A stretch of DNA of 64,000 nucleotides, from contig MAAO01000006.1 in assembly GCA_002163155.1 (NCBI GenBank), forward strand, positions 1,302,001-1,366,000, given 5' to 3'. The notes under the pieces were generated by a model. That model saw only the letters and a list, made by a program, of their open reading frames with translations, had not been told where the DNA came from and did no database searches. The translations under genes and the position numbers were made by a program. Origin of the DNA: Halobacteriovorax marinus. Lineage in GTDB: Bacteria; Bdellovibrionota; Bacteriovoracia; Bacteriovoracales; Bacteriovoracaceae. Each line of letters begins with the position of its first letter. Position 1 is the stretch's first letter. Shown here one piece after another: positions 6,162 through 51,288 of this stretch.

Positions 6162-7034
6162 TTATGCTATTTTTGAAACTTTAGTTTTAGAAGTATCTTC
6201 TTTCTTAGATGTTTCGTGTCCAGATCCACTACCTTTCTTTTTCAACTTCAAAAGACTAATTTTTAACATGAATAGTAAACCTCTTTGGTAGAGATTTGTA
6301 AGGAAGCCTATTTTTCCAACTTGGACAATGTCCTCTCCCTTAGAGTGATCAATCCAGGTCATGCAAAATGTTTGGTAAATAAATTTTTCAGCTCGCGCCA
6401 GTTTATAGAAGTTTGTCGAAAACCCCATTCCATTTGAGTTCGATGACATCGTGAAACGTCGAGAGTCAATTTCCACAAGATCATCTGTAACAAAGTATTT
6501 TTTTATATATTCATCTTCTAGCGCCTTGACTACATCTTTGTAATTCTTGGGTATCAACTTTGCATTTTGGCTAGGTGAGGGCCAAGCCTTATGAACTATA
6601 TTATCAAACGATTCTATAATAGAAGGTGTCGAACTTATATTAGTTGAATAAATAGTTCCAAGTGATTCGTATGCAAGAATCATATTTTGGATTGCAGGGT
6701 AGGAGATGCAATTTGCCCCTGGGTTCTTATTAATAATAACAAGCCCAGCGTGAAGAATAGGTCCGTGTGAACAATGAATGATTGGACTTATTAAAAAACC
6801 AAATGCTTCATCTTCAAAATACATTAGCGCGATAACACATGAATCATAGAGTTTTCTGTTTTCTTCTAAGGTGTTTCCAGCAATTAAGAAATTATTCTTT
6901 ACAGGTGACCTTGAACTCTCGTTTATAGTAACGAGCTCTTTTCTCATCTTGGAGAATTCAAGATCATCCAACTCTTTGCCTGGATTCATATAGTGAATAG
7001 ACTTAAACGAATTTATGGTATTTATCTTTTTCAT
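6162..7034 (-). CDS. Unknown protein, possible GNAT-like N-acyltransferase
   Basis: The protein has 290 residues. The middle part (about 60-150: a strand ALMYFEDEAFGFLISP, then HAGLVIINK, then a helix and the strand TIYSTNISSTPS) resembles the strand-helix pattern of GNAT-fold acyltransferases such as N-acyl amino acid synthases; this rests on pattern only. The C-terminus is a Lys/Ser/Gly-rich tail after a hydrophobic helix. It starts 9 bases after the stop of the E1-like gene, and its ribosome site (AAGAGGAAA) overlaps that stop, so the two genes are coupled. This suggests that both act on the same small molecule or peptide. Confidence 0.6.
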   Translation of the reverse strand: MKKINTINSFKSIHYMNPGKELDDLEFSKMRKELVTINESSRSPVKNNFLIAGNTLEENRKLYDSCVIALMYFEDEAFGFLISPIIHCSHGPILHAGLVIINKNPGANCISYPAIQNMILAYESLGTIYSTNISSTPSIIESFDNIVHKAWPSPSQNAKLIPKNYKDVVKALEDEYIKKYFVTDDLVEIDSRRFTMSSNSNGMGFSTNFYKLARAEKFIYQTFCMTWIDHSKGEDIVQVGKIGFLTNLYQRGLLFMLKISLLKLKKKGSGSGHETSKKEDTSKTKVSKIA

Positions 7035-7043
7035 AATTTCCTC

Positions 7044-7862
7044 TTAAGCAGCTTTCTTTAGTTTAGTACTCTTAGTTAATTTCCCTGACTGTAATTGCAT
7101 GTCGTATTGATCAAAGAATATTCCTTGATGATCACAATGATCTCTTCCTGTACAAATTTTAAAAACCTCATTGGCCATGAGAACTCCACTCAGCCATACG
7201 ACTGGGCCAAGAGAAGGTCTTGGACGTTTCTTGTAGACAATATCTTTGACGAATTCTTTATCAATGATTTCATAGGGACTGAAGTGAGAAAAAGTATAGG
7301 CGACTTCAATATCTACTGCTTCATTACAGATCTCTGGGGTGAGTTCTTCTAGAGGAATTCCTTGTGTAGGTAGGTCTAAAAACTCTTCCCAGTGTGGAGA
7401 GTCAGGAGTCATAACAAAAACGCTCGCGTAGGGAGTTAGCCAGGCATCAACGATGGTAAGTCCTCTTTGTCTGGCATTTCTCTCTAAGATCAAAGAGTTA
7501 AACATTTCGTCCATTCCATTTACAATATAATCAACATTTTCTAGTAATGATGAAATATTATCTAAGGTGACTTTCTCGTTATATGCTTTAATTTCCAATT
7601 CAGGGTTTATAAGTAGGTACTCATTCTTTAGAACTTCTACTTTGAATTTACCAAGAGAATTAATATTGGCATGGAGCTGTCGATTGAAATTCGATTTTTC
7701 GTAGATATCATGATCAATTATAGTTAATTTACCTATTCCCATACGGACTAGGACTTCAGCGCAAACGCCTCCCATTCCTCCAACTCCTGCAATGAGAACA
7801 TGTGTTTTCTTTAAAGCGTCTTGATCCATTTGTGAAATTAAACCTAAGTTTCTTGAAAACAT
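7044..7862 (-). CDS. ThiF/MoeB/HesA-family E1-like adenylyltransferase
   Basis: The 272 residues carry the Rossmann-type ATP-binding fold of E1-like enzymes: VLIAGVGGMGGVCAEVLVRMG (about 22-42), IIDHDIYEKSNFNRQ with the conserved Asp and Arg, and later VDYIVNGMDE. Such enzymes activate a C-terminal carboxylate with ATP for sulfur transfer or amide/isopeptide formation. The paired CxxC zinc motifs of MoeB/ThiF are absent; only CTGRDHCDH is seen near the C-terminus. No ubiquitin-like or MoaD/ThiS partner lies nearby. It is the first gene of a two-gene unit with the acyltransferase-like protein, which argues against a housekeeping role in thiamin or molybdopterin synthesis. Confidence 0.85.
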   Translation of the reverse strand: MFSRNLGLISQMDQDALKKTHVLIAGVGGMGGVCAEVLVRMGIGKLTIIDHDIYEKSNFNRQLHANINSLGKFKVEVLKNEYLLINPELEIKAYNEKVTLDNISSLLENVDYIVNGMDEMFNSLILERNARQRGLTIVDAWLTPYASVFVMTPDSPHWEEFLDLPTQGIPLEELTPEICNEAVDIEVAYTFSHFSPYEIIDKEFVKDIVYKKRPRPSLGPVVWLSGVLMANEVFKICTGRDHCDHQGIFFDQYDMQLQSGKLTKSTKLKKAA

Positions 7863-8001
7863 AATTTCTCCTTGAGTAAAAGAAATTCATCATAAACTTA
7901 ATTTGATAAAACTTTAGAAGTTTATTTTAACTTCATTGAGTTATCAGTAATTTAAAATTTAATTATCAATTTATCTTTAGAATTAAAATGGAATGAGTTG
8001 T

Positions 8002-8028
8002 TTTGATAGCCCGAAAAATTTGGCTATT
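8002..8028 (-). terminator. Possible terminator overlapping the end of a histidine kinase gene
   Basis: The inverted repeat GATAGCC (8005-8011) and GGCTAT (8022-8027) overlaps the stop codon at 8024. On the minus strand it is followed by a short A/T-rich tail. The stem is short, so support is modest. Confidence 0.4.
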
Positions 8029-9421
8029 GAATTAGTAGAACTGGAGGTTGAGTACTGAAACTTAATATGAACTCTGTACCATGGTCATGAGGATGTTCTG
8101 TAAGCCTCTTAGAGATAACTTGCACTTTACCTTTCATTTCTTTAATAAAGAATAGCGCCTGAGTTAAACCAACTCCTAGTCCTACTTCTCCTTGGGTTCC
8201 TTGAATACTCTCAGATATTGACTCTGAGAAGAAATTCTCAAGTGAGTCTTCTTGCATTCCTGTCCCAGTATCTTTTATACTGATTGTGATATTTTTCCCA
8301 TCAGTCTCTGTATGAATTCTAATTGCTGAGTCTTCAAAACTAAACTTGATAGCGTTGGAAATAAAATTTGAAAGTATGGAGGTAATGAAAATGGATTTAT
8401 TTCCTAGAATCTTATCATTCTCTGTGAGAGTTGAAGTGATCTCCAATGTTAAATTCTTTTCTTCTAGATGATAATTGAATACTGATTGTACTTCAGTGAA
8501 GGCCTCTTCAAGATCAATAGTTTCATCTTGACGACTTTGTTGTGCAATATGAAATTGTCTAAGGTTTTGAATAACATTATTCATATTATTTGTTGCACGA
8601 TTGAGAATATCAACATCTTTAGTCGAAAATAAATCTTTTGATTTCTTTAGTTTCTCAGTTTTTAATCTCACTAAAGTTAGAGGATTATTTATATCGTGCA
8701 TGATCGCTCTAATAAGCGTGTCATTTAGTTTTTTAGATTCTAAAAGTTTCTGATTTGCACTCTCTAATTGAGAATTTAAAATCTCTTGTTCATATCTCTT
8801 TTCTTCAATCTCATTTAAAAGTTTTGAAGTTGATACAACACCGATTAAATATCTCTTCATGAGCTTGAAAGGGTTCCAGCTCATAGTCGTTTTTGTTAAC
8901 TTTAGATTTATAACTGAGTGCTCCTCAAGGTTTTCAACCGTGGCCACGGCATCGGGATATCCAATACAGGCTGGAAAACCTTCAAAGGCAGTGGCATAGG
9001 CTTTTATAAAATTTTGAGATTTAGAAAAACCTTCATTAATTGTGACTTTTATTTGAACATTTTCTCTGTCTAATTTCTTGTATTCGAACTTCACATTCTT
9101 ATACATATATTTGCAAATAAAATTACAAAAGAACCAGTAGATATTCTCTGGTCGTATAACGGCTGCTGTCATCTTTCTAATGGTTGAAAGTTCTTCGTTT
9201 AAAACACCCGTTTTATTAATACTACCGAGTGCTTTTTCTTCACCGACAGTATCAAATACATAGTCAGTCATTGTTACGAAGTCTTCCCAGTTATGTTTCT
9301 TTTTAGCATTTTTAGCATCATCCCACGAGAGATCGGTACCACTAACTAGTAGACTTGGATCATGTCCAAATTCTTTGAGGGTATCAATGTAGGCCGCCAG
9401 TGTGACGTTAGAAACTTCCAT
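8024..9421 (-). CDS. Soluble sensor histidine kinase
   Basis: The protein has 465 residues. Residues 1-180 form an N-terminal sensor-like domain that resembles, by pattern only, the ligand-sensing domain of AraC-type regulators and related myxobacterial/Bdellovibrio domains (DPSLLVSGTDLS ... IRPENIYWFF). A coiled coil (about 200-232) leads to the H-box with phospho-His242 in IMHDINNPL. The ATPase has NFISNAIKFSF (N box), DTGTGM (G1) and GLGVGL (G2). No membrane helix is seen, so it is probably cytoplasmic and senses an internal signal. It is divergent from the methyltransferase gene at 9572 and shares its unusual H-box with the kinase at 10551. Confidence 0.88.
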   Translation of the reverse strand: MEVSNVTLAAYIDTLKEFGHDPSLLVSGTDLSWDDAKNAKKKHNWEDFVTMTDYVFDTVGEEKALGSINKTGVLNEELSTIRKMTAAVIRPENIYWFFCNFICKYMYKNVKFEYKKLDRENVQIKVTINEGFSKSQNFIKAYATAFEGFPACIGYPDAVATVENLEEHSVINLKLTKTTMSWNPFKLMKRYLIGVVSTSKLLNEIEEKRYEQEILNSQLESANQKLLESKKLNDTLIRAIMHDINNPLTLVRLKTEKLKKSKDLFSTKDVDILNRATNNMNNVIQNLRQFHIAQQSRQDETIDLEEAFTEVQSVFNYHLEEKNLTLEITSTLTENDKILGNKSIFITSILSNFISNAIKFSFEDSAIRIHTETDGKNITISIKDTGTGMQEDSLENFFSESISESIQGTQGEVGLGVGLTQALFFIKEMKGKVQVISKRLTEHPHDHGTEFILSFSTQPPVLLIQ

Positions 9422-9571
9422 GGGTCATATGTACCAAGTTTTAACTAATTATTACAGTAATTTGAAGAATTTATAGTTTTTTAAGATTTTAAATGGCAAA
9501 ATATCGATAATTTTAAATTTTTTATTTTTAAAATGATTATTTGCTATCAATTTGAGATTTAAGGAACACTT

Positions 9572-10360
9572 ATGAGTAGAAAACATCTTTTTGAAATCGA
9601 GGATCAAGAATGGTTTCCTTCATTCTTACGCCAATATATGACTGATTACTTACACTTTGGTTGGAACACTTTTAAGTTAGGTTCTCCATTGGTTCCACTA
9701 GTTAAAAAAGCATTAGATCAGTCAAATGCTTCACATGTTATTGATTTATGCTCAGGTGGAGGTGGTCCAATTCTCTATTTATACAATGAACTCAAAAACG
9801 ACAATTTAAGTTTCACTCTAACTGACTACTATCCCAATCTAGAGGCATTTAAGAAAGTAGAAAGAGAATCAAATGGTAAAATTAAAGGGATCAGTGAACA
9901 GGTTGATGCTAGAAAAGTAGGAAAAGATGTAAAGGGACTTAGGACTCTTTTCTCATCATTCCATCATTTTAATCCTGAAGACGCTAAGAAAATACTAAGT
10001 GAAGCAGCTGAAAATCAAGAATCTATTCTCATTGCAGAATATACTGAAAGAAGTTTACCTTGCATCTTGAAGATAACATTAAGTACTTTATTTATGATCT
10101 TTTTCTTCACTCCTTTTGTTAAACCATTTTCAATTGGAAGAATTATTTTCACTTATCTAATACCTATTATTCCACTTTGCCTATTTTGGGATGGTGTAGT
10201 TTCATGTTTACGATCATATAGTGAAGATGAGCTCCATGGACTTGTTAGTGATATAAAGCCATTGGGGTATAGTTGGGAAATTAGTTCAGAGAAGGTTGGG
10301 GGCAATCAAATATCTTACTTAATGGGAATCCAACTTCCAGATTCAAAAGCCACTATTTAA
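9572..10360 (+). CDS. Membrane-anchored SAM-dependent methyltransferase-like protein
   Basis: The protein has 262 residues. Motif I of class I methyltransferases is clear: VIDLCSGGGGP (56-66), followed by a second strand FTLTDYYPNL, as expected for SAM binding. After the core, two hydrophobic segments (about 165-183 and 188-208) form a membrane anchor, and a final part LRSYSEDELHGLV returns to a typical methyltransferase end. The substrate is unknown; the anchor points to a lipid or a membrane-bound small molecule. It has AAGGAA before the ATG and sits between two sister histidine kinases. Confidence 0.75.
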   Translation: MSRKHLFEIEDQEWFPSFLRQYMTDYLHFGWNTFKLGSPLVPLVKKALDQSNASHVIDLCSGGGGPILYLYNELKNDNLSFTLTDYYPNLEAFKKVERESNGKIKGISEQVDARKVGKDVKGLRTLFSSFHHFNPEDAKKILSEAAENQESILIAEYTERSLPCILKITLSTLFMIFFFTPFVKPFSIGRIIFTYLIPIIPLCLFWDGVVSCLRSYSEDELHGLVSDIKPLGYSWEISSEKVGGNQISYLMGIQLPDSKATI

Positions 10361-10550
10361 ATCAGATTCTTCCTTATATTTCCCTATTTATCAGATTGTA
10401 ATAGGGGATATGTTGGATTGTGTAAGTATTATAAATCCTTAAGGCTGCTACATGTCTTATATGAGTTAAATTTGGTGTTTATCTCATTTTTTAGTCGTAA
10501 ATTATTTACAACCTATAAGACTATTCAATAAAAATACCTTATAAGGATTT

Positions 10551-11957
10551 ATGGAATTAACTATTAAGGTTTTATTTGGAGTATATTTTTCATTATATTT
10601 TTTCAATATGGTATTGAATGGTTTTCTCTATTTAAAAAATAGAAACACACTCTACAAACAGATCTTTGGATTATGGGCCACAAGCTTAGGGGTATTCTTA
10701 CTTGGAGGAGTTTTTCAACAACATCCTCTTGGAGTCACTCTGTCCTTTGGACTGTCTGTTATTCCTGTAGTTTATTTTATATTTATTCACGCAAAGGCGA
10801 TTAGATACAAGTATGAAATCAAACTATTCAGCTTTTGTTTTTTATTCATTTTAACTCCTCTTACTATATTTCTTTTTTTCAAAGGTTACGCTCCCTATAT
10901 TGTAGGGCTTCCTCTTACTTTGGGAAATGTCTATGTCATTGGAAAGTATATATTTCTTATAAAAAGATACCGTTATAATAGTTTAACTTTTGCACAGAAG
11001 CTCTATTTCTATGGTCTTGTTTACGCAATGTTGATTCAAGCGACTTTTCCCATCTCTACTTTATCTCCAGCTCTTTCTCTTATGGGGTGGAGCTTAGCCT
11101 TTACTATCTACGTTTTATTTTCAATAACTCTTCCATCATTTGTTCTTGAGTCTATTCACTTAAGTGAAGAGAAGAGACTAAATGACGTGGTAGATTTAAG
11201 AACTGAAGAGTTAAGAAGTACTTTAAGTGACAAAGAGTCTCTTTTTAGAACAATTATTCATGATATCAATAATCCTTTAAATACCATCATGCTCTCTCTT
11301 GAGATGTATACAGAGTTGGATGGAGTTAAGAAGGATAGGGTGGTTTCAAGGGCCTTCAAGCACGTAAAGCTAGTTCACGGTATTATTGAAGATGTGACGG
11401 CGAAGTATATGGAAATGGTTGAAGATAAAATTTCTATTTGTTCTTTGCAGGAATGCTTTAGTATGTCCCATGATATATTTGCGGAAAAACTTAATGAGAA
11501 GAATATTTCTCTAAGACTTATCTGTTCAGGAAAATCAGATTATATCTTAAATGTTGATAAGATTTCATTTGTGACATCGGTTCTAAATAATCTTATTTCG
11601 AATGCTATTAAGTTTTCTTTTGATAATAGCGAAATTCAAGTCATTGCTAGCGAAGTTGATGGAGAGATTACCATTGAAGTGAAAGACTTTGGTTCTGGAA
11701 TGAATAAGATCAAAGTGAATTCTTTACTAAATGAAACTCTGCAGACATCAACTTCTGGGACTTCTGGAGAAATGGGGCTAGGGCTTGGATTTAACCAAGT
11801 TAAGCACTATGTGGAATCTTTAGCGGGATCAATTGAGCTCTCTTCTAAGGAACAATCTCTTGCAAGTAGTGGGAGCGGAACTTCTGTGAAGATGTTCTTT
11901 GATAGGTATAATCTAAGCGGCACAACTTCAGAAACTGATTCTTCTACAATTCAGTAG
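10551..11957 (+). CDS. Membrane sensor histidine kinase with 7TM-like N-terminus
   Basis: The protein has 468 residues. Residues 1-200 contain six or seven hydrophobic helices with very short loops, so the signal is probably sensed within or at the membrane. A short coiled coil (about 205-230) leads to the H-box IIHDINNPLNTI (His237). The ATPase carries NNLISNAIKFSF, VKDFGSGM and GEMGLGLGF. The H-box and the 'SGTSGE' ATP-lid segment closely match the kinase at 8024-9421, suggesting a common origin. The ribosome site AAGGAT lies before the ATG. No response regulator is adjacent. Confidence 0.9.
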   Translation: MELTIKVLFGVYFSLYFFNMVLNGFLYLKNRNTLYKQIFGLWATSLGVFLLGGVFQQHPLGVTLSFGLSVIPVVYFIFIHAKAIRYKYEIKLFSFCFLFILTPLTIFLFFKGYAPYIVGLPLTLGNVYVIGKYIFLIKRYRYNSLTFAQKLYFYGLVYAMLIQATFPISTLSPALSLMGWSLAFTIYVLFSITLPSFVLESIHLSEEKRLNDVVDLRTEELRSTLSDKESLFRTIIHDINNPLNTIMLSLEMYTELDGVKKDRVVSRAFKHVKLVHGIIEDVTAKYMEMVEDKISICSLQECFSMSHDIFAEKLNEKNISLRLICSGKSDYILNVDKISFVTSVLNNLISNAIKFSFDNSEIQVIASEVDGEITIEVKDFGSGMNKIKVNSLLNETLQTSTSGTSGEMGLGLGFNQVKHYVESLAGSIELSSKEQSLASSGSGTSVKMFFDRYNLSGTTSETDSSTIQ

Positions 11958-12053
11958 AACTTTATTCTCTAAAAAGTGTATTTTAACTCAACTTTAGGAT
12001 AAAAATCTTACATTTTTCGTTACTTTGTCCTAATACTTCGCTAATAATCAGAC

Positions 12054-12485
12054 ATGTATTGGAAAGAAAAAAAAATAAATGAATTTACTAGTGATGAGTG
12101 GGAAGCTCTATGCGACGGTTGTGGTAAATGTTGTTTATTGAAATTAGAAGACCCTGACACTATGGAAGTGGCCTACACCGCTTGTGCCTGTTCACTACTT
12201 GATATTGAAAAGGTGACTTGTAAGCAATACTCTTCTAGATTCTTAGTCGTTCCAGAATGTCTTAAAATCAAACCTGAAAATATCATGGATCTCAATTACC
12301 TTCCTAATACTTGTGCTTATAAACTCATAGCACAGGGAAAAGATCTTCCTGATTGGCATCATCTCAATTGTGGTAATAAAGAATTGGTACATAATCTTGG
12401 AAAGTCTGTTCGTGATTGGTGTGTACCCATTGAGAATGTTCCCGAAGAAGATTGGGTTGACCTCATTATTGAAATAGAAGATTAA
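12054..12485 (+). CDS. YcgN/UPF0260-family cysteine-cluster protein
   Basis: The 143 residues match the UPF0260 (YcgN) family: they begin with a tryptophan-containing start (MYWKEKKINEFTSDEWEALC), followed by the cluster CDGCGKCC (20-27), then CAC (44-46) and further spaced cysteines (VTCKQY, PECLKI, NTCAYKL, LNCGN, DWCVP). The function of the family is not established; the cysteines suggest metal or Fe-S binding. The length matches the family. A terminator follows. Confidence 0.85.
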   Translation: MYWKEKKINEFTSDEWEALCDGCGKCCLLKLEDPDTMEVAYTACACSLLDIEKVTCKQYSSRFLVVPECLKIKPENIMDLNYLPNTCAYKLIAQGKDLPDWHHLNCGNKELVHNLGKSVRDWCVPIENVPEEDWVDLIIEIED

Positions 12486-12515
12486 TATTATTGAATTAAT
12501 AATCTCGTGAGAAAC

Positions 12516-12552
12516 ACTCCAAAGAAAAATCTACTTCTTTGGAGTTACTATT
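12516..12552 (+). terminator. Terminator after the YcgN-like gene
   Basis: An 11-bp stem ACTCCAAAGAA (12516-12526) / TTCTTTGGAGT (12535-12545) with an 8-base loop is followed by T-rich sequence. It lies between two converging genes and probably serves the plus-strand one. Confidence 0.75.
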
Positions 12553-12563
12553 ATTTAATTATT

Positions 12564-14876
12564 TTATTTTAAGCTATATCGACCCGGTGAAATTATTTCA
12601 TTTGGATCAATTATTGATTTTATATCACTACCTAGCTGCCAAAAAGTATCTTCCATATCTACAACGGAGCTCATATGATTTATTCCCATTCTATAAGGGT
12701 AGAAACCAAGTTTTTTACCCTCTTCAAGTAATTCATCATAGCAACTATGAGCTTTAGCGGTTTCATCAACTTCGCTCTTATCTCTTTTAAAGAGGATAGG
12801 AACAGTACTGTCGAAACATTTTTCTGACACACTTGTGAATGTTATCAATGGTTCTATTCCATACTTGCCACACACTTTCTCAACGAAACTAACATATTCA
12901 CTAATCTTCTCTGGAATCATGGGAACGAGAGGTGAGTACCAAATGAGACCACACTCATCTTGGGCTGGATTAATTTCTCCGTTCATATCTGGAGTTTCAG
13001 ATTTTTTTAGATAACAAAGAGGAAGAGCAAGTTTCGAAGGCTTACCATTGAAAATTTCGATGAGTTTTATTAGGTTGTTCAGTAACCCATTAAATTTAGA
13101 CTTAAATTTTTTAAAAAATAAATCAGGAAGAATAGAAACGAATTTTCTTATTAAGCGAGCCTTTCGATCAGTAAAGAAATGTAGTTTTCTGTTTTTCTTC
13201 TTAAGGATTCTCTGTGTAAGTTTACGAGAGGCCTTGTTTATTTCTTTATTTTTATAAAATGATCCAATGACAGTCCATTCGCATACACCTTCTTTCTTTG
13301 CGAGTTCTTGTATTTCTAAATCAGTTAAAATGTTTTTCCCATCTGATTCACTAACATATGCTGTTTGCATTGAAAGAACTCTTCTATTGTTCATCAAATT
13401 AACAGCGCCAACAATCCCTCCGAGTTGAGTGATAAGAGATCTTATGTCTTTTACAATATTTTGTAAGTCATCTTTGTCATGTAACTCTAAAACAAAGACT
13501 TCGACTTCTTCTGGTCTTTTGACAAGAGAGATTGTTGCTTCTGTTACTATTGCATAATTAGACTGAGTAAAAATTCCGTCAAGATATGGACCAATTCCAC
13601 CTCTGAAAATATTGTCTAACATATTTCCCGCAATTTTCCTCAAGGGAGATTTATATATTTTTCCATTTCCTAAGACAGCTTCAATTGAATGAAGAGAAGC
13701 AAAATGATCTTGATGGGGAGTAGGTCCATAACCTCTTTCTAACAAATTTCCCAAGATGCTACAAGTTGGTCCAGCTCCTGTCGTTGGGACTAAGTAGTTA
13801 TGGTTATTGTCTTCTAGGTATTTATATAATTGTCCCTGTGTTAGACCGGGGCCAATACGTATAAATCCTAAATCTTCATTAAATTCTATTATAGAATTAA
13901 GTAAAGAAAGATCTAGAATGACGTTGTCATTTGTTGCTGGAAGAGATGAGCCATAACCCCAATTGTTTCCAGAACTGATAGGTGATAGTTTGATATTGTG
14001 TTCGTTCGCAATCTTAACAATCGAAACGACTTTCTCTTTGCGAGTTGGCCTTAAACAAATTAATATATCTCTTTTTAAATTTATTGTATTTCTTTTGTAT
14101 TTTTCTATGTCACAAATGATTTCGTCTTCAGTTAGTATCTCTGAAAAAAGACGTTGTAATTTTAGTTTCATATCTAAATCCTCTCTTAAAATTGGAAGTC
14201 CAAAATGTTTTTTTTTATTCCATAAATCATTTACTAGATTGTTAAAGCTGGGTAACTCTTTTCCAATGAGATCTTTTTTATAAAACCCCACGAGGTTAAT
14301 CATTTCACCCTCAATATGATAGGGATGATTAAACTTAATAGTAGTTCCGCCACATTCTTCTGCGACTTTTCCCATTCCTTTTTTTACTCTAGGCATTATT
14401 CCAAGTGCAGAGGCCTCAGAATGTTTAAAACGTTTCACCATCATTGTGACCATTAGGTCTTTCCATGAGATACCAAATCTCTGTCTTCTGAAGTTTTCAC
14501 TAATAGCAAAATATGATCCAGAAATTATATCCTCACCATCTCTAGAAAGAGCTTTCATCGCAGAAGCAGGCCAATGGTAGAAGTTTGCATCATCCTGTGT
14601 TGTGATCTGGGAGGCATTAAACCATTTTAGTAAAGTTATTCCTATACATTCATCTTTATAAAACAACGCAAGAATCTCATCTTGTCTCGTAAAGTCTTTT
14701 GAGAAGAGTGGACCTTCGACATTAGACTCATTTCGATCTTTCATCCATACATCCTTCCAAAATAGGTAGGTGAGGTTGTATTTGTTTTCCATTGTTTTGG
14801 GGGGGTGATTTCCTTTAAAGACAAAGTACTGGAGTTGAGATTGGTCGAGAACGTTATCTTTCTCTTTCTTATACAT
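12564..14876 (-). CDS. GNAT acetyltransferase-FAD oxidase fusion protein
   Basis: The protein has 770 residues in two parts. About 1-215 resembles a GNAT acyltransferase (DECIGITLLKWF, YFAISENFRRQRFGISWKDLMV with the R-R-x-x-x-G acyl-CoA loop). About 255-770 is a vanillyl-alcohol-oxidase/PCMH-type flavoprotein: a strand-rich FAD-binding region with SSGNNWGYGS, VPTTGAGPTCSILGNLLERG, HSIEAVLGNG, and the typical end DPNEIISPGRYSLK. Such oxidases act on phenols, alcohols or sugars. I know no common family with this pairing, so it may acylate and oxidise the same molecule. The ATG has AAGGAA 6 bases upstream. A run of seven C on the coding strand lies near codon 25 (14799-14805). Confidence 0.8.
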   Translation of the reverse strand: MYKKEKDNVLDQSQLQYFVFKGNHPPKTMENKYNLTYLFWKDVWMKDRNESNVEGPLFSKDFTRQDEILALFYKDECIGITLLKWFNASQITTQDDANFYHWPASAMKALSRDGEDIISGSYFAISENFRRQRFGISWKDLMVTMMVKRFKHSEASALGIMPRVKKGMGKVAEECGGTTIKFNHPYHIEGEMINLVGFYKKDLIGKELPSFNNLVNDLWNKKKHFGLPILREDLDMKLKLQRLFSEILTEDEIICDIEKYKRNTINLKRDILICLRPTRKEKVVSIVKIANEHNIKLSPISSGNNWGYGSSLPATNDNVILDLSLLNSIIEFNEDLGFIRIGPGLTQGQLYKYLEDNNHNYLVPTTGAGPTCSILGNLLERGYGPTPHQDHFASLHSIEAVLGNGKIYKSPLRKIAGNMLDNIFRGGIGPYLDGIFTQSNYAIVTEATISLVKRPEEVEVFVLELHDKDDLQNIVKDIRSLITQLGGIVGAVNLMNNRRVLSMQTAYVSESDGKNILTDLEIQELAKKEGVCEWTVIGSFYKNKEINKASRKLTQRILKKKNRKLHFFTDRKARLIRKFVSILPDLFFKKFKSKFNGLLNNLIKLIEIFNGKPSKLALPLCYLKKSETPDMNGEINPAQDECGLIWYSPLVPMIPEKISEYVSFVEKVCGKYGIEPLITFTSVSEKCFDSTVPILFKRDKSEVDETAKAHSCYDELLEEGKKLGFYPYRMGINHMSSVVDMEDTFWQLGSDIKSIIDPNEIISPGRYSLK

Positions 14877-50487: not shown

Positions 50488-51288
50488 ATGGTCACTGAAA
50501 AGCAGAATATTGAAAAAGAAAATAAAAGAGAAGCTCTAGAGTATATTGAGCAAACGGAACTGTGTATTCACTATATTTTAAGTAAGGAGAGTCAACTCTC
50601 TCGTGAGTACGGAACTATTCTTACTAGTATACAATCTTTGAAAAACTCTCTTATCAAATTTGGCCTTTCCAGTGAATCAGACTTGGTTCAAATGATTGAA
50701 GATATAGTTAAAATTTATGAGAATAAAAAAGAATTTAGTGAATCTGATTTAAATGCCATTCTTAGTTCCTTGGCCATTGTGGCCTATCGCTTGGAGGGAA
50801 ACGACCACAGCATTTCCCCCAGACTCTTTGAGGATATAAAACATCTCTTAGGTGATCATTCCTGTGATTTAAGTCAGTCGTTAAAGAGACTTGATACTAA
50901 ACACGTGATGGATGATCATTTCTTAAAAGTCTTAGTTATCGATGATGATCCTGACTACCAAGTGTTACTTAAAGCAAAATTATCCAATTTCTGTAATATA
51001 GATTTTTGTTCATCAGCTGATGAGGGAATAGGTCTCATTAAAGAAAACCCAAAAAATTATCAAGTGATCTTCTGCGATTATAAAATGCCAGATGAGAATG
51101 GACTCTATCTGGTTGATGTTCTACGTACTTTGGACTTTGATATTCCCATCGTTGTGTTCTCTGCAAATGCTACTACAACGGATTTAAAGGAAATACTGGA
51201 AAGGGAAGTCTACTCGTATATAGATAAACTCGATGGAATTAATCCCTTTAAATTGGTAATCAATAAAATTCAACGAAAGGCGGCCTAG
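50488..51288 (+). CDS. Response regulator with unknown N-terminal helical domain
   Basis: The protein has 266 residues. About 1-140 is helical (possibly HPt-like or a dimerisation part, with no clear phospho-His motif). About 148-266 is a receiver with LVIDDDPDY, VIFCDYKMPDENG (acceptor Asp), VFSAN and a final YIDKLDG that supplies the conserved Lys. It is divergent from the CheY-like gene 170 bp away, so both may serve one pathway. Confidence 0.85.
   Translation: MVTEKQNIEKENKREALEYIEQTELCIHYILSKESQLSREYGTILTSIQSLKNSLIKFGLSSESDLVQMIEDIVKIYENKKEFSESDLNAILSSLAIVAYRLEGNDHSISPRLFEDIKHLLGDHSCDLSQSLKRLDTKHVMDDHFLKVLVIDDDPDYQVLLKAKLSNFCNIDFCSSADEGIGLIKENPKNYQVIFCDYKMPDENGLYLVDVLRTLDFDIPIVVFSANATTTDLKEILEREVYSYIDKLDGINPFKLVINKIQRKAA

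Follow-up and report, generated by a model that had tools for sequence, protein, structure and literature searches.

A conserved histidine kinase-ThiF-GNAT operon in Halobacteriovorax marinus and its resemblance to acyl-oxazolone synthesis loci

Acyl-oxazolones are synthesised by an amino-acid N-acyltransferase, a ThiF-type ATP-dependent cyclase and a desaturase of the nitroreductase superfamily, the named sets being TyzABC and TrzAS of Mycobacterium and OxzAB of Pseudoalteromonas (PMC10404671, PMC12856293). Clusters of the stieleriacine type comprise an N-acyl amino acid synthase (NAS), ThiF, a nitroreductase and a methyltransferase (PMC12479983). What acyl-oxazolones do has been called a major unresolved question, cell-cell signalling having been suggested only from their structure (PMC12856293). 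Here we describe a locus with part of this enzymology in a 64,000-nucleotide stretch (the window; contig C1, 1302001-1366000) of a single 4.55-Mb genome of Halobacteriovorax marinus, a Bdellovibrio relative. It contains an operon of histidine kinase, ThiF-like enzyme and GNAT-fold protein, near a second kinase and a gene fusing a FeeM-like domain to a flavin oxidase. The kinase-ThiF-GNAT triplet is conserved beyond chance; the complete gene set is not conserved. Judged from its sequences, the locus probably makes a fatty-acid-capped amino-acid compound, with a matching sensor kinase kept alongside.

A first-pass annotation had proposed that an E1-like enzyme coupled to an acyltransferase-like protein, a membrane methyltransferase, a GNAT-flavin oxidase fusion and two related histidine kinases together make and sense a small molecule by a route unlike any known pathway. 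All six of its open reading frames (ORFs) are present where it placed them. Its claim of novelty was too strong, as acyl-oxazolone and stieleriacine clusters use the same kinds of enzymes (PMC10404671, PMC12856293, PMC12479983). Co-occurrence in relatives holds for the kinase-ThiF-GNAT core and fails for the methyltransferase and the fusion, which are scattered or present independently; of the paired kinases, the soluble one belongs to the conserved acyltransferase-E1 operon and the membrane one to a related cassette, the whole set not being conserved.

The kinase-ThiF-GNAT operon

The core operon comprises three genes (window coordinates):

6162..7034, minus strand: GNAT-fold acyltransferase-like protein, 290 aa; final gene of the operon; C-terminus ...SKIA
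7044..7862, minus strand: E1/ThiF-like adenylating enzyme, 272 aa; candidate N-acyl-amino-acid cyclase; C-terminus ...KKAA
8024..9421, minus strand: soluble histidine kinase, leading gene of the operon; sensor aa 1-180 (about 8880-9421)

Of the 129 genomes of the Bacteriovoracaceae, 8 carry a ThiF that is 60-100% identical to the window's, and homologs of the 6162 protein adjoin it in all eight. Three congeners (G001, G003, G004) have a syntenic locus in which kinase, ThiF and GNAT-like gene follow one another between an HU-like gene and ycgN, and the same gene order is repeated in G017, G015 and G104. A tree of 21 ThiF sequences separates the window clade (11 rows, support 97/98) from a sister clade (6 rows, 100/99) with a Shinella plasmid among its members. 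A histidine kinase adjoins ThiF in 11 of the 13 testable window-clade loci. The 11 come from two families of the phylum and the Dadabacteria, the other two being from Flammeovirga; the loci are related to each other, hence not 11 independent events. The kinase is upstream of ThiF in 7/7 testable Bacteriovoracaceae and downstream in 3/3 loci of family f8 of the phylum and in the one from Dadabacteria (1/1). These adjacency counts leave out G105, whose contig stops 127 bases past ThiF; L083, L085 and L087 are duplicates of G004, G104 and G105, and the kinase of G360 (f8), interrupted by N, was identified as such only from its homologs in L131/L132 (E 1.8e-31 to 1.8e-36). The window together with a 400-kb sample contains five kinases of this type among 371 ORFs (about 1%), of which two are the window's own. 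That the gene order comes in two forms and the sensor in three (soluble, multi-membrane, PAS) makes it unlikely that a single inherited accident accounts for the association.

Loci of the sister kind have a different content: a GNAT-like gene, ThiF, a membrane protein, a second GNAT, a nitroreductase-type oxidase and, usually, cytochrome c. GNAT-like gene, ThiF and nitroreductase occur together in nine of ten such loci (L064-L067, L116, L133-L136, the last four assigned by gene content and ThiF similarity rather than by the tree); in the exception, L063, there is no nitroreductase and the contig ends 1.2 kb after ThiF. In L117 we confirmed FeeM, ThiF and nitroreductase as a single polypeptide. 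The nitroreductase family (F21) has no member in the clustered window-clade loci. Flammeovirga (Bacteroidota; L084:9449-10783, L086:9449-10783) also has a ThiF, which shares 62-64% identity with that of the window and lies behind a 181-aa protein, for which searches gave no family, and without a kinase; it looks like a transfer between phyla.

The product of 7044-7862 is a ThiF (PF00899, E 1.4e-40); in NCBIfam PRK08223 was best (6.4e-42), followed by PRK14851 (2e-34), each below its own cut-off, and the match to the model of Rv1355c (TrzS) was weak (E 4.2e-11, far under cut-off). Its nucleotide site is intact, the GxGGxG motif, D52, R61, K74 and D118 being invariant in 8 of 8 aligned sequences. 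By our own mapping D118 most likely corresponds to D217 of TrzS, mutation of which abolishes cyclisation (PMC12856293).

The 6162 protein itself had no family or structure match in direct searches of PDB, Pfam and NCBIfam, and a first scan of the genome contigs with it gave no match. Among 19 aligned relatives, seven match Acetyltransf_1 (E 1.3e-5 at best), and an AlphaFold model (AF2, pLDDT 82) built from four sequences proved to be a GNAT fold (best Z 11.4; 157 residues at 3.3 A) in the structure-based search that the first-pass annotation had proposed. LasI ranks 49 in the Foldseek list; LuxI and FeeM folds do not lead it, which excludes nothing. By eye, distant GNAT relatives of the protein (L021:10653-11441, L022:19398-19879) lie near PlsC-like acyltransferase genes, hinting at a two-step acylated lipid.

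The sensor of the soluble kinase was modelled from its first 224 residues with moderate confidence (pLDDT 73, three sequences). H-NOX domains are the best structural match (Z 12.7, 168 residues, 3.4 A), followed by the VirS N-terminal domain (Z 12.3) and Bet3 (Z 11.0), and Pfam returned one match only, to YdjC, in one of seven rows (E 0.0013). We rejected heme sensing and do not class the domain as H-NOX, since no histidine is invariant among the seven aligned sensors. V4R/Bet3-type domains are presumed to have hydrophobic ligands (PMC2253512), and from the modelled fold we infer a lipid-like ligand. Such a fold suits any hydrophobic ligand, and membranes can contain N-acyl amino acids (PMC10404671); together with the PlsC-like neighbours noted above, this is consistent with an envelope N-acyl amino-acid lipid whose kinases sense the state of the envelope or its lipids, no dedicated signal being involved. 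Against this membrane pathway, the kinase type varies (soluble H-NOX-like, multi-transmembrane, PAS) while its adjacency to ThiF stays, which a partner specific for the product would explain at least equally well, and we consider it rather unlikely.

The second cassette and the neighbouring genes

The remaining features of the locus are these:

9572..10360, plus strand: putative membrane-associated methyltransferase, considered outside the system
10551..11957, plus strand: membrane histidine kinase, of the sensor type that accompanies haem-oxygenase-like diiron oxidase (HDO) plus FeeM-like cassettes in relatives
12054..12485, plus strand: YcgN-family gene (NF003507, E 3.6e-52), considered outside the system
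12564..14876, minus strand: fusion protein, 770 aa; FeeM-like domain aa 1-242 (about 14151-14876)
12564-14138, minus strand: oxidase half of the fusion, aa 247-770, VAO/PCMH-type para-phenol oxidase; without an -AA tail

By sequence comparison the fusion links a para-phenol oxidase to a domain that resembles N-acyl amino acid synthases of the FeeM type. Of its description as a GNAT-flavin fusion, the flavin half is certain: it belongs to the 4-cresol dehydrogenase/vanillyl alcohol oxidase (VAO) family (E 1.6e-55), with the phenolate-site residues Y728-R729 invariant in 8/8 homologs and the second tyrosine, Y308, in 7/8, the phenolate-binding set being known as the P-cluster (PMC12909556). The N-terminal 240 residues, which define family F1, match no Pfam GNAT model and gave nothing in direct PDB, Pfam and NCBIfam searches; they are FeeM-like by profile. 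Comparison of the F1 profile with FeeM-type synthases (PF21926) by hhalign gave E 1.4e-4 over 61 columns at a probability of 53%, against 0.054 at best in 100 column shuffles, 0.5 for the reversed profile and 0.12-0.35 for four other alignments. Profile comparison between the two types of acyltransferase, the 6162 family and F1, gave no link.

F1 stands alone in 12 fetched loci (L049-L059, L019), and in all 12 its neighbours are a haem-oxygenase-like protein (PF14518 in 12/12) and a histidine kinase (that of L058, which is short, included). E63, H66, E117, H145, D149 and H152 of the haem-oxygenase-like protein are invariant and are probably its diiron ligands. A search of the window's genome, run without a positive control, detected no HDO. 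The sensor of the membrane kinase 10551 matches 9 of 13 F1-cassette kinases at E below 0.01. As the first-pass annotation had held, the window's two kinases are related: both are HisKA/HATPase_c proteins, with cores 33% identical. The kinase cores of both cassettes are mutual nearest relatives within the set searched, and in a 34-row kinase tree 19 of 20 cassette kinases fall in one part with 4 others (94/92, below the starred threshold). Of the three genomes with both cassettes, two (the window's and the distant G015) have them side by side, whereas in G017 they lie on separate contigs.

In another congener, G002, the genes of an unfused phenol oxidase and of a 263-aa protein form a two-gene unit, 8 bases apart (L075:6676-10526), divergent from a kinase whose sensor matches that of the window's membrane kinase (E 1.4e-5). 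Family searches with the 263-aa protein (ending ...KKTA) gave none; the unit may represent the window's fusion in split form.

The methyltransferase, membrane kinase and fusion flank both sides of the window's ycgN, a conserved syntenic neighbour in G001, G003 and G004 that marks two insertion points, and are therefore additions to the locus. They might be unrelated inserts, leaving kinase, ThiF and GNAT as the sole unit: all three are missing from the syntenic locus of those congeners, and distributions differ gene by gene. The recurrence of membrane kinase and FeeM-like domain as one cassette, found beside the ThiF operon in G015 as well, speaks against so fortuitous a neighbourhood, as does the grouping of both cassettes' kinases in the tree, below the starred threshold though it is; we judge it unlikely.

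The methyltransferase is another matter. The hydrophobic stretch behind its description as a membrane protein was seen by eye only, and its match to Methyltransf_25 (E 0.011) is below cut-off. Its family (METHYLTRANSFERASE, 9572-10360) occurs in 10 of the 129 genomes, and among the eight with a close ThiF only in the window's; in relatives it is located apart from ThiF genes, in L078 and L080 beside P450, SDR and other lipid-type genes (labels by eye). A row of ThiF, methyltransferase and FeeM-domain protein does occur in L069:6505-9489 (G100), as a compact stieleriacine-like set. With the stieleriacine clusters (PMC12479983) that locus is an instance of a methyltransferase accompanying ThiF and NAS elsewhere, as it would were it the tailoring enzyme of one complete pathway; given the separate distributions we rejected this five-part pathway as highly improbable. 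On present sequence evidence the methyltransferase is unrelated to the system, and it is omitted from our model.

A shared C-terminal tail

A C-terminal [AV]A is common to four of the cassettes' enzyme families, unrelated to one another, and ends 31 of 40 proteins (related rows, not independent) against 13 of 833 in the background (7/511 in the loci and 6/322 in 400 kb of the window's genome). It is present in 10 of 12 stand-alone F1 proteins, 9 of 12 haem-oxygenase-like proteins, 7 of 8 members of the 6162 family and 5 of 8 window-clade ThiF proteins; if I, S or T is also accepted ahead of the terminal A, the last three counts rise to 12/12, 8/8 and 6/8. The truncated L060 row and F1 members containing a VAO domain are excluded from these counts. 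Within each family the last three residues are 42-62% identical and the preceding 20 only 10-15%. The window's fusion protein has no such tail, nor do the ThiF proteins of L084, L086, L088 and L063-L067.

The simplest reading of the tail is possibly a protease signal. ClpXP of Caulobacter recognises non-polar C-terminal residues (PMC8973945), and its degradation of SpxA2 in Streptococcus mutans requires C-terminal alanines (PMC10782952). The tmRNA tag of the window's genome, AKSNDFAMPMAA, ends in -PMAA, and a ClpX gene is present; SspB was not found, in a search whose control was detected in 2 of 14 genomes. Nothing relevant was found in the literature on Bdellovibrio ClpX degrons. The tail predicts that one protease clears an entire small-molecule pathway. 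Elsewhere in the window a 266-aa protein (50488-51288) has a similar tail, ...IQRKAA. Ends in -AA or -VA occur too on two-component and chemotaxis-like proteins of the same contig (6870-9386, 374654-376819, 376819-377325; L096, L114), some of the tail-bearing background proteins resembling, by eye, CheA, CheW and response regulators, as though the tail were shared by several signalling proteins.

A tail common to four enzyme families would also suit a system that modifies the ends of proteins or peptides instead of a free amino acid, the GNAT by acylation and the E1 by adenylation, under regulation by the kinase. ThiF/MoeB-type E1 enzymes adenylate protein C-termini (PMC10404671), and the top Foldseek matches of the 6162 model are NatD and other N-alpha-acetyltransferases. 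We thought it unlikely that the tails are E1 substrates, as they are found also on HDO/FeeM-like pairs in genomes without a close ThiF and are missing from the ThiF proteins listed above. We noticed neither a ubiquitin-like nor a carrier gene in the operon, and sister-kind and fused ThiF proteins occur together with nitroreductases and with FeeM-like or GNAT genes, like the characterised small-molecule pathways. Protein or peptide modification is in our view a distinctly improbable role.

A possible acyl-signal pathway and its relation to known systems

The best explanation we can offer, to which we give somewhat less than even credence, is an acyl-amino-acid or oxazolone-type signal with dedicated kinases, the core being a three-gene signalling operon. 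The GNAT-fold protein would N-acylate an amino acid and the E1-like enzyme, using ATP, would adenylate its free carboxylate, closing an acyl-oxazolone-type product. This product, or the N-acyl amino acid itself, would fill the hydrophobic-ligand fold of the 8024 kinase, which would report its level. The second cassette would follow the same logic and may feed the same pathway, the FeeM-like half of 12564 acylating tyrosine and the membrane kinase 10551 serving as partner. The oxidase half would then desaturate the tyrosine side chain via a quinone methide, replacing the missing nitroreductase. VAO enzymes form a p-quinone methide able to tautomerise to an alkene (PMC9684555), which is the change required for dehydrotyrosine, and the fusion predicts a novel route for desaturation of N-acyl tyrosine.

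Several observations weigh against this proposal. The acyl-CoA loop of the 6162 protein is degenerate, protein N-terminal acetyltransferases are among its closest folds, and its profile shows no relation to FeeM (E 0.12). ThiF has no kinase beside it in either Flammeovirga locus (0/2), where the partner gene differs as well, and in G360 ThiF and kinase have no adjoining GNAT-like gene. Three ordinary nitroreductase genes (213-272 aa) elsewhere in the window's genome could act in trans. As for the second cassette, none of the other seven family genomes with a close ThiF has the fusion, and two of them, G017 and G015, hold just the stand-alone FeeM-like gene. The covalent-FAD residue (His or Tyr; FAD, flavin adenine dinucleotide) of the oxidase could not be aligned, region 632-656 being aligned without confidence.

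More broadly, and more doubtfully, the Bacteriovoracaceae may possess a family of exchangeable acyl-signal cassettes, each with an acyltransferase (GNAT or FeeM-like), a tailoring enzyme (E1 cyclase, HDO or para-phenol oxidase), a receptor kinase, the kinases being of one subfamily, and a degradation tail on the synthetic enzymes. The shared tail would let signal output stop at once, for example between life-cycle phases. If true, the cassettes would include the first dedicated receptors for acyl-oxazolone-type compounds and the first VAO-type desaturase in a pathway of this type. The surprising part is the dedicated kinase; the oxidase of the related cassette is new for such pathways. Because the cyclase gene retains a kinase across two families and the Dadabacteria, with varied sensor types, the question of oxazolone function becomes testable.

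The core resembles the acylation and cyclisation steps of the acyl-oxazolone pathway: an acyltransferase-like protein and a ThiF-type adenylating enzyme are encoded together, and a flavin oxidase is in the set. Unlike acyl-oxazolone loci, that of the window has no nitroreductase-type desaturase and has a histidine kinase as constant neighbour; its oxidase is of the VAO/PCMH type and fused to a FeeM-like domain, a fusion seen only in this genome, and the acyltransferase of its operon is not FeeM-like by profile. We have not filed the core as a member of the pathway because no nitroreductase is adjacent. The stieleriacine, thalassotalic acid and kyonggic acid clusters likewise combine NAS, ThiF, an oxidoreductase and sometimes a methyltransferase; these clusters use nitroreductases, and the section describing them makes no mention of a kinase (PMC12479983). 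In the open-licence literature we found no paper joining oxazolone, ThiF and histidine kinase, and a search for N-acyl amino acids in Bacteriovorax returned nothing relevant.

Two further systems bear comparison. LuxI-type autoinducer synthases are acyl-transfer enzymes encoded beside a receptor, a likeness in logic only: the window has an E1-like second enzyme and a putative histidine kinase receptor, and no LuxR-type partner was noticed beside the operon. With the vanillyl alcohol oxidase/4-cresol dehydrogenase family, the window's oxidase shares sequence and the Tyr, Tyr and Arg of the phenolate site, differing from it in being fused to a FeeM-like domain.

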